DNA of 64,000 nucleotides, from the NCBI GenBank assembly GCA_944325735.1, contig CALVBI010000002.1, positions 62,001 through 126,000 on the forward strand. The letters are read 5' to 3'. Of the stretch, positions 33,071 through 34,680 are shown one piece after another (the stretch's first letter is position 1; each line of letters begins with the position of its first letter). The translations under genes and the position numbers were made by a program. This DNA comes from Candidatus Gastranaerophilales bacterium (GTDB taxonomy: Bacteria > Cyanobacteriota > Vampirovibrionia > Gastranaerophilales > Gastranaerophilaceae). The notes under the pieces are model-generated. The model worked only from the letters and a program-made list of their open reading frames with translations. It had not been told where the DNA came from and made no database searches.

Positions 33071-34324
33071 ATGAAAAACGAAGAGAATAAAAATGGTGTG
33101 TCCCTCTTTTCACAATCTGATTATTTGATAGGACAAGATCCTATTGAAGAGATTTTTGCACTTAATTTAGGAGATTTTATTGCTGAAAATCTTATTTCAG
33201 AAGATTTGGCAAGAAAAATCGGTAATAGTGTAAAAGATAAAAAATCAGGTTTGATAAATCAATTAAAAGAATTGATTTCTATATATTCTTTACAAAATAC
33301 GTTATGTGTTTTGAGTTTTGATAAATCAGAAGAGCAGGCTATTTATACATCTATTGCTCATTCTGTAAAACAAATGTTAGAAATTCAGGCATGTCATATT
33401 TATCTTGAAAAAAATAATGAATTAGATCTTGTAGGTACAACATCAGGTAGTATTGAAAATTTTCAAATAGATGAAAGTACGCCGGCAGGTAAAGCATTTT
33501 TGGCTAAAGAATCTGTATTTGATAAAGATGTAACAGTTATTCCAATGCATTGTAATATAAAGTCTACTGGTGTAATTATCTTAGAAAATTCAGAACAAAT
33601 TAATCGTGAATATATTGATCTTGTAGAGAGTATTGCGATTCTATTTGCAACATCAATGACTTTACAACATACTATCGATGAAACTAATAAATTAATTGAT
33701 GATGAGAAGTCATCTGCTTCAGATTTGCAACATATGAGAGCTGAATTGACTGCATTAATTGGTGATCTTTGTGATTATCAACAAAGTTTTGTTGAAAATC
33801 TTGCAAATGCTGTGGATACAAAAGGCGGATATAAAGTTTCTCATTCTAAAAATACAGCAAAACTAGCAAGACAACTGTGCAAACAATTAGGATTAAATGA
33901 AAAAACAACTGATTTGATATATTATGCAGGTCTATTGCAAAATATCGGAAAAATTGCACTTCCGGAAAAAATCTTTGCTACAAATGGTAAATTATCTGCA
34001 GAAGAATTGCAAAAAATTCAGGAACATTCAAATATTGGGGTTCATTTATTAATGAATATCAATTTCTTGTCAGAAGTTGTCCCATATATAACTTATCAAA
34101 AGGAAAGATATGACGGAACAGGATCTCCTGAGGGGTTAAAAGGTCAATCAATTCCGTTTGGTTCAAGAATAATTGCAGTAGCAGATGCTTATTCTGCAAT
34201 GACATCTGACAGACCATATAGAAAAGCAATGTCGGTTGATAAAGCATTAGAAATAATGCAGTCTGAAGCCGGGGCAAAATGGGATCCTGTAGTTATTAAT
34301 GCATTAGCAGACTCAGTAAAATAA
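33071..34324 (+). CDS. GAF plus degenerate HD-GYP domain protein
   Basis: A 417-residue cytoplasmic protein. Residues about 80-205 look like a GAF sensor. Residues 250-415 align with the HD-GYP fold (KVSHSKNTAKLA, LLQNIGKIALPEKIF, EHSNIGVHLL, KERYDGTGSPEGLKGQSIPFGSRIIAVADAYSAMTSDRPYR). The catalytic HD doublet is QN, the HH of the HHE motif is YQ and GYP is GSP. So c-di-GMP hydrolysis is unlikely, and the domain may be a sensor or scaffold. It follows an ATG with AAGGAAA and is monocistronic. Confidence 0.8.
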   Translation: MKNEENKNGVSLFSQSDYLIGQDPIEEIFALNLGDFIAENLISEDLARKIGNSVKDKKSGLINQLKELISIYSLQNTLCVLSFDKSEEQAIYTSIAHSVKQMLEIQACHIYLEKNNELDLVGTTSGSIENFQIDESTPAGKAFLAKESVFDKDVTVIPMHCNIKSTGVIILENSEQINREYIDLVESIAILFATSMTLQHTIDETNKLIDDEKSSASDLQHMRAELTALIGDLCDYQQSFVENLANAVDTKGGYKVSHSKNTAKLARQLCKQLGLNEKTTDLIYYAGLLQNIGKIALPEKIFATNGKLSAEELQKIQEHSNIGVHLLMNINFLSEVVPYITYQKERYDGTGSPEGLKGQSIPFGSRIIAVADAYSAMTSDRPYRKAMSVDKALEIMQSEAGAKWDPVVINALADSVK

Positions 34325-34345: not shown

Positions 34346-34380
34346 AGAGCCGTCAAAAATAATTTGGCGGCTCTGTTGTA
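34346..34380 (+). terminator. Hairpin terminator after the HD-GYP-like gene
   Basis: AGAGCCGTC and GGCGGCTCT pair around an A/T loop, with a short T-rich tail. Confidence 0.6.
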
Positions 34381-34386
34381 TATAAA

Positions 34387-34680
34387 TTATTTTATAATAC
34401 TGAATGCAACAATGTTATGAATTCCAATATTTAGCCAATCGTATTTGAAACAGACGTAATCATTGCAATCGCAATTATCGCCATCACAAGTACAATAGTC
34501 TGAAAGTCTGCAAACTAAAGCATTTTCTAACGTAATAAAGTCATCATGGCATTCTTCGCATTTGCCTTCAGGTAAAAATAGTTCTCCATCAATTTTTAAA
34601 TGACCTGTGAATATTGTAATTTTGTTAGTTCCGCTTTCATCAATAATCTTTGCAATTGATTTAATTAGATGTTTTGTCAT
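34387..34680 (-). CDS. Small cysteine-rich protein of unknown function
   Basis: A 97-residue protein with eight cysteines in clusters (KCEECHDD, RLSDYCTCDGDNCDCNDYVCF), suggesting metal binding. The N-terminal half (IKSIAKIIDESGTNKITIFTG) looks like an alpha/beta unit. There is no signal peptide. GGAG precedes the ATG. No family recognised. Confidence 0.55.
   Translation of the reverse strand: MTKHLIKSIAKIIDESGTNKITIFTGHLKIDGELFLPEGKCEECHDDFITLENALVCRLSDYCTCDGDNCDCNDYVCFKYDWLNIGIHNIVAFSIIK

Follow-up and report, generated by a model that had tools for sequence, protein, structure and literature searches.

What is left for an HD-GYP domain to do once the residues that mark its active site have been replaced? 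The question is raised by a gene at positions 33071-34324 (+ strand) of the window, by which we mean the whole stretch of 64,000 nucleotides analysed here, taken from contig CALVBI010000002.1 of a Candidatus Gastranaerophilales bacterium. The preliminary description of this locus proposed a GAF domain followed by an HD-GYP domain with all key catalytic residues replaced, and a receptor for c-di-GMP or another ligand rather than an enzyme.

Domain order and structure model

The called open reading frame is uninterrupted and encodes a soluble protein of 417 amino acids in which an N-terminal helical segment, a GAF fold, a stalk helix and a putatively dead HD-GYP domain follow one another. The identity of the last domain, as first described, was confirmed: the Pfam profile HD_5 (PF13487) matches residues 250-408 (33818-34294, + strand) with an E-value of 3.7e-44 and 150.9 bits against a cut-off of 27.2, over profile positions 9-170 of 170, and VIA-align matches the fold to that of DvhD at Z 18.4 and to that of PA4781 at Z 16.7. 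The HDOD profile also exceeds its cut-off (28.7 bits against 22.9), but its best stretch spans only profile positions 97-138 of 196, and HD_5 is by far the stronger match. The GAF domain is well founded as a fold but weak by sequence: many GAF structures match the model over residues ~75-205 (33293-33685, + strand) at Z 12-16, with a maximum of 16.1, whereas the Pfam GAF profile reaches 14.4 bits, below its cut-off of 22.4. A stalk helix at residues 216-252 (33716-33826, + strand), assigned by DSSP of the model, joins the GAF fold to the HD-GYP domain. Because the highest 19-residue Kyte-Doolittle mean is 1.28, no membrane helix is predicted; a dCache domain is absent among the Pfam matches of the protein, and a PHROGs search gave no match.

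The AlphaFold2 model, computed from the window protein and 62 related sequences, has a mean pLDDT of 73.6 and consists of helices in residues 1-77, the GAF fold, the long stalk helix and the helices of the HD-GYP domain. Residues 1-54 lie below a pLDDT of 50, confidence in the HD-GYP part is modest (about 57-60 at residues 301-350 and 44 at 351-360), and the same domain modelled alone came out poorer, with a mean of 64.4. The top row of VIA-align, which is a re-examination of Foldseek's list and cannot prove that a part lacks a known fold, was c-di-GMP-bound DvhD (9rbz_C), with 187 residues aligned at 30% identity. We regard this match as unspecific, because Foldseek places PmGH first and DvhD second, and because the best solved relative by sequence is V-cGAP3 (E 6.5e-30), deposited as a 3'3'-cGAMP phosphodiesterase, followed by DvhD (E 1.6e-27).

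The N-terminal helical segment (residues ~20-80; 33128-33310, + strand) is modelled at low confidence and is conserved, with F29, L31, N32, G34, F36 and Y72 among the columns that are invariant in 31 aligned rows. When eight genomes were searched with a 66-residue query over this segment, each of the seven that bear an ortholog returned a single strong match, and the eighth (G057), which has no ortholog, returned no convincing one. Within these eight genomes the segment was seen only in the window protein's family, to which it appears to be private.

Metal-site residues in the window protein and its relatives

The metal site is best read against PmGH of Persephonella marina (PDB 4MCW), which, like the window protein, combines GAF and HD-GYP domains but, unlike it, is active as a phosphodiesterase, with a tri-iron site in which none of the eight metal ligands is missing (PMC4159591). 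The PmGH ligands are E185, H189, H221, D222, H250, H276, H277 and D305, with D308 and K225 nearby (PMC4159591). In the alignment their equivalents are Y254, H258, Q290, N291, H319, Q343, K344 and D372, and those of D308 and K225 are S375 and K294. Three of the eight ligands are thus kept (H258, H319 and D372), four are lost outright, and one shows the change of E185 to Y254, which has been tied to a binuclear Y/F subfamily (PMC4159591). The motif readings given in the preliminary description stood with small corrections. The HD dyad is indeed replaced by Q290-N291 (33938-33943, + strand) in LLQNIGKI, and the tyrosine of GYP by S352 (34124-34126, + strand) in GTGSP; the HHE motif is also replaced, but it corresponds to Q343-K344-E345 (34097-34105, + strand) in YQKER, so that the tyrosine of the YQKE originally given precedes the motif. 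The replacement of all key residues holds for the HD dyad, the HHE histidines and the GYP tyrosine but not for H258, H319, D372, K294 and E345, and the loss of the D308 equivalent had been missed.

How much weight do these losses carry? Alanine at H221, D222, H276 or H277 essentially abolished the activity of PmGH, whereas Y285A did not much reduce it (PMC4159591). Because that mutant stays largely active, loss of the GYP tyrosine alone would not decide against activity; the combined loss of the dyad and both histidines should be decisive, since the corresponding PmGH mutants are essentially inactive.

Relatives were compared in sets of 118 and 167 rows of distinct sequences, some of whose loci derive from the same genomes. 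One locus with the gene in two frames (L059) and two cut at contig ends (L156 and L157) were left out of both sets, and a contig-end fragment (L060) was never part of them. Among the 167 rows, the dyad position reads QN in 137, HN in nine, GS in eight and other letters in 13, and HD in none; an intact HHE occurs in no row, and the GYP tyrosine in four (two rows of family f14 and two of genus g34). H258, H319 and D372 are retained in 163, 147 and 155 rows, D372 being N, G or Q in the other 12, and the number of PmGH ligands kept never exceeds five of eight, a value reached in nine rows. The strength of the HD_5 match, together with the absence of the dyad and of an intact HHE from every row, argues that the loss is not a matter of chance. 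That the window protein is not an active phosphodiesterase, as had been suggested, is therefore well supported at the level of sequence, five of its eight metal ligands being different and the equivalents of D222 and D308 being lost in 167 of 167 relatives. Annotation based on domains could mistake it for such an enzyme.

The neighbour families f9 and f15, which lie outside the order, are also degenerate, with G-S or similar letters at the dyad. By parsimony, the loss of the metal site would therefore be older than the order and predate its split from these families, although the differing letters allow separate losses. Two distant full-length homologs of family f14 (L192 and L279, in genomes G063 and G074) have SQ at the HD position and QHE at HHE, keep the GYP tyrosine and show further losses, with S, G and Q at the sites of H258, H319 and D372, a pattern that resembles DvhD. 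Because both sit on very long branches of the tree, we claim no order of losses. In a domain tree of 40 rows, the 13 rows of the window protein's family and L192 fell into one starred clade; a weak group around it further includes, among others, two GGDEF-HD-GYP proteins from the same genome. A tandem pair of HD_5 matches in a single frame of 483 amino acids, as in HD-[HD-GYP] proteins, was observed in genome G079 (contig C5, 205711-206700).

The gene itself is widely kept. An intact ortholog was found in 53 of 57 genomes of the order; in the remaining four the gene lies in two frames (G055), is a contig-end fragment (G043) or is absent (G035 and G053), and a 58th genome, of another order, has no ortholog. 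The G055 copy (L059, contig C61) is split over two reading frames in a single draft genome. In a second sample, which overlaps with the first, all 98 genomes of the order match at E ≤7.7e-132; beyond it, the matches of f9 (10 of 10 genomes) and f15 (three of four) have E ≤1.2e-82, and two of four genomes of f14 carry a distant full-length homolog. Across a phylum-wide sample of 194, the 85 that match at E ≤1e-70 all come from the window's own family. The dN/dS ratio between the window gene and seven relatives is 0.07-0.17 in seven of seven pairs, and by this measure the gene is under purifying selection among close relatives.

We also considered, and rejected, the idea that a lysine migrating between positions 344 and 352 replaces the metal. 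In 118 rows, K or R at the two positions looked mutually exclusive, occupying 344 only in 85, 352 only in 16, both in two and neither in 15 (Fisher p 1.5e-9), and a test of dependent evolution yielded p 0.012, rank 3 among 60 control sites. Once further genomes had been added, 31 of the 167 rows were without K or R at 343, 344 or 352, and the test on 165 rows yielded p 0.03, rank 13 among 77 control sites; the idea was dropped because the larger sample did not rise above these background sites. D372 is lost only in rows without such a lysine: 10 of 165, and also the two f14 rows outside the test. Tested on the tree without a control series, this association had p 0.08 for K344 and p 0.04 for any lysine.

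Ligand-contact residues and genomic setting

If catalysis has been lost, what has been kept? DvhD of Desulfovibrio vulgaris (PDB 9RBZ and 9RC0) has SQ at HD and MN at HH, does not hydrolyse c-di-GMP and binds it through a PAS/HD-GYP fragment at ~99 nM (PMC13090378). Its canonical contacts are Y652, L577, M646, E668, Y621, K582, R650 and Y523, and its bridging contacts are K520, P567 and R569 (PMC13090378); counted on the printed sequence, Y621 is the GYP tyrosine. In the same order, the window protein has Y383, L308, M377, E399, S352, L313, R381 and Y254 at the canonical site and K251, P298 and K300 at the bridging site. It is thus identical to DvhD at six of eight canonical positions, the exceptions being S352 for Y621 and L313 for K582, and at two of three bridging positions. 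R381, Y383 and R384 (34211-34222, + strand) correspond to R650, Y652 and R653 of DvhD, and the first and last of these to R314 and K317 of PmGH; E399 (34265-34267, + strand) is the equivalent of E668, which reads the second guanine.

Several of these residues are close to invariant among the 167 rows: R384 is R in all of them and R381 in 165, the position of E399 holds E or D in all, and Y383 is Y in 147. Nine positions of the DvhD site (the eight contacts and the adjacent R653) are more conserved than random sets from the domain in 118 rows (P = 0.02, with phylogeny ignored). All 13 family rows examined have E at the position of the guanine-reading glutamate, as against three of 24 HD-GYP domains from outside the family in related genomes (Fisher 1.6e-7; 13 of 13 against 8 of 24 when D is also counted, 6.8e-5), figures that come from related rows and are not true probabilities. 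When the 11 contacts are taken together, likeness to DvhD is scarcely greater in the family (mean of 6.2 identical residues in 13 rows) than in the 24 other domains (5.6). The GYP-tyrosine site is freely variable, with E, S, T, K and V among its residues, and its entropy in 118 rows exceeds that of 98% of domain positions; the tyrosine touches a phosphate in PmGH and in DvhD. As judged from these alignments, the catalytic motifs have been lost from a conserved gene that keeps most of the contact residues.

Does the organism have a ligand to offer? Its genome holds five HD_5 matches, the window protein's own included. One of them (C1:222) joins a GGDEF to an HD-GYP domain in which HD, HHE and GYP are all intact, and another (C1:116) is a GAF-HD-GYP protein with HD and HHE intact and GYY for GYP. 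There are also two PilZ matches and seven GGDEF matches, for which motif patterns gave GGEEF three times, GGEEM once and GGDEI once and left two unmatched; EAL had no match in the genome. The search for active HD-GYP and GGDEF proteins that had been proposed for this genome thus turned up seven GGDEF proteins as well as apparently intact HD-GYP proteins, and these, with the PilZ matches, make it likely that the organism has a c-di-GMP pool and that enzymes other than the window protein clear it. The substrate-helix motif, recognised in three of the seven GGDEF proteins, is ND in all three; its D is presumably the aspartate of a report on GGDEF substrate preference that is taken up below.

Many close relatives have rsmH and a short gene ahead of it, the latter without a Pfam match and called ftsL-like from its position only, and gyrB behind it. 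Most other members of the order, and the neighbour families, do not share this setting, and because no operon partner is conserved across the order we infer none; no adhesin-control neighbour was recognised around the window gene. The gene is followed by a terminator-like hairpin at 34346-34374 (+ strand), with 12 pairs and then GTTGTATATA; the region has two terminator-like sites as against a mean of 0.6 in shuffles. Directly after it, on the opposite strand (34387-34680) and convergent with the HD-GYP gene, lies a gene for a cysteine-rich protein of 97 amino acids that has no match in Pfam, NCBIfam or PDB. Of 115 evaluable loci, among which some genomes appear twice, 54 have a homolog of it within 1 kb downstream of the HD-GYP gene and convergent with it, and three have one at another place in the locus, two of these convergent just past 1 kb; the protein is matched in 77 of 117 genomes of the order.

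Switch, scaffold or residual enzyme

We put at about even chances the reading that the window protein is a metal-free, non-hydrolytic cytosolic switch for a cyclic dinucleotide (c-di-GMP) like DvhD, in the form of a soluble GAF-containing dimer. It is supported by the kept contacts, the precedent of DvhD, the place of DvhD at the top of VIA-align and the GGDEF/PilZ context, whereas the loss of the GYP tyrosine at a site free to vary, and L313 at the position of DvhD K582, weaken the case for c-di-GMP binding. The earlier proposal of a receptor for c-di-GMP or another ligand is accordingly plausible as regards the base contacts and the precedent but suffers from the absence of the tyrosine that contacts phosphate. 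We infer that c-di-GMP, or a molecule closely related to it, would be held without a metal by R381, R384, Y383, M377, L308, Y254 and E399 of the domain; that, as in DvhD, binding may shift the stalk helices within a dimer; and that the GAF domain and the private N-terminal segment might relay the state to a partner, the c-di-GMP pool being set by the GGDEF proteins and apparently intact HD-GYP enzymes of the genome. More tentatively, the family could be a near-universal c-di-GMP receptor of the whole order that arose by an ancient, vertically inherited conversion of an HD-GYP enzyme, reads guanine by its Arg/Arg/Tyr/Glu set without a metal or GYP tyrosine, and signals through its private N-terminal segment.

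The main rival to the cyclic-dinucleotide switch is a scaffold without a ligand: nucleotide binding would have been lost, and the HD-GYP domain would serve to dimerise or to bind proteins while the GAF domain acts as sensor, or it would regulate an active GGDEF or HD-GYP partner by contact, as proposed for the degenerate NosR. Degenerate HD-GYP proteins have been proposed to work through other c-di-GMP enzymes (PMC12570481, PMC4212101), and the freely varying tyrosine site, the leucine at the position of DvhD K582 and the conserved stretches outside the contacts (LNEKT, INFLSEV and the N-terminal segment) would all suit such a role; a pure scaffold has, however, no obvious need of the near-invariant R381, R384 and E399, and we consider it possible but doubtful. 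The altered phosphate side, where the Tyr and Lys contacts are gone, could also suit 3'3'-cGAMP, pGpG or another nucleotide, and DvhD itself binds 3'3'-cGAMP at ~501 nM (PMC13090378). This alternative seems unlikely to us, since E399 and the Arg pair fit the reading of guanine, and since the recognised GGDEF substrate helices carry ND whereas a changed substrate preference goes with serine at the substrate-helix aspartate (PMC12943098). A slow hydrolase with a single metal on H258, H319 and D372 would explain why these residues are so often retained and why nine rows reach five ligands, but it has against it the lack of a D222 equivalent in every row, the near-complete inactivity of the PmGH alanine mutants (PMC4159591) and the rows in which D372 itself has changed, so that we regard it as very improbable. 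As for a decaying pseudogene or a sequencing artefact, the single two-frame copy among 57 genomes of the order is outweighed by the open frame in 53 of them, by the low dN/dS and by a loss of this type in families outside the order, which together refute it.

Dead HD-GYP domains are already known, and a receptor with bound c-di-GMP is known for DvhD. Like DvhD, the window protein has lost the HD and HH metal ligands, keeps the guanine-reading Glu and the Arg, Tyr, Met and Leu contacts, and has a stalk helix and a sensor domain ahead of the HD-GYP domain. DvhD differs in that it keeps the GYP tyrosine, has PAS in place of GAF and, encoded in an adhesin-control (Lap-like) operon, sits in the membrane with its dCache domain in the periplasm, whereas the window protein has its private N-terminal segment and no predicted membrane helix. 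Bd1817 of Bdellovibrio (PDB 3TM8) also has an HD-GYP fold without the GYP tyrosine and does not hydrolyse c-di-GMP, but its HD diad, which the window protein lacks, is discussed as metal-binding (PMC4159591). A broken HD dyad is likewise found in NosR of Burkholderia pseudomallei (HG-GTP), predicted to be inactive, and in two Vibrio cholerae proteins, VC1087 and VCA0895, that showed no activity when assayed (PMC12570481, PMC4212101); NosR carries a receiver domain, and the window protein a GAF fold, spread across an order. Leptospira LIC_10122 and Streptomyces hdgB are further dead or predicted-dead examples. Few studied dead HD-GYP domains were found in the literature, DvhD (2026) being the sole one among them with a c-di-GMP complex, and in the open-licence literature of PubMed Central no paper was found for Gastranaerophilales with c-di-GMP or for Melainabacteria with HD-GYP. 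If the reading as a switch is true, the window protein would be a second case of a degenerate HD-GYP receptor, one that lacks even the GYP tyrosine and is conserved across an order of gut bacteria. Its family makes it testable which residues of the HD-GYP domain serve catalysis and which serve recognition.
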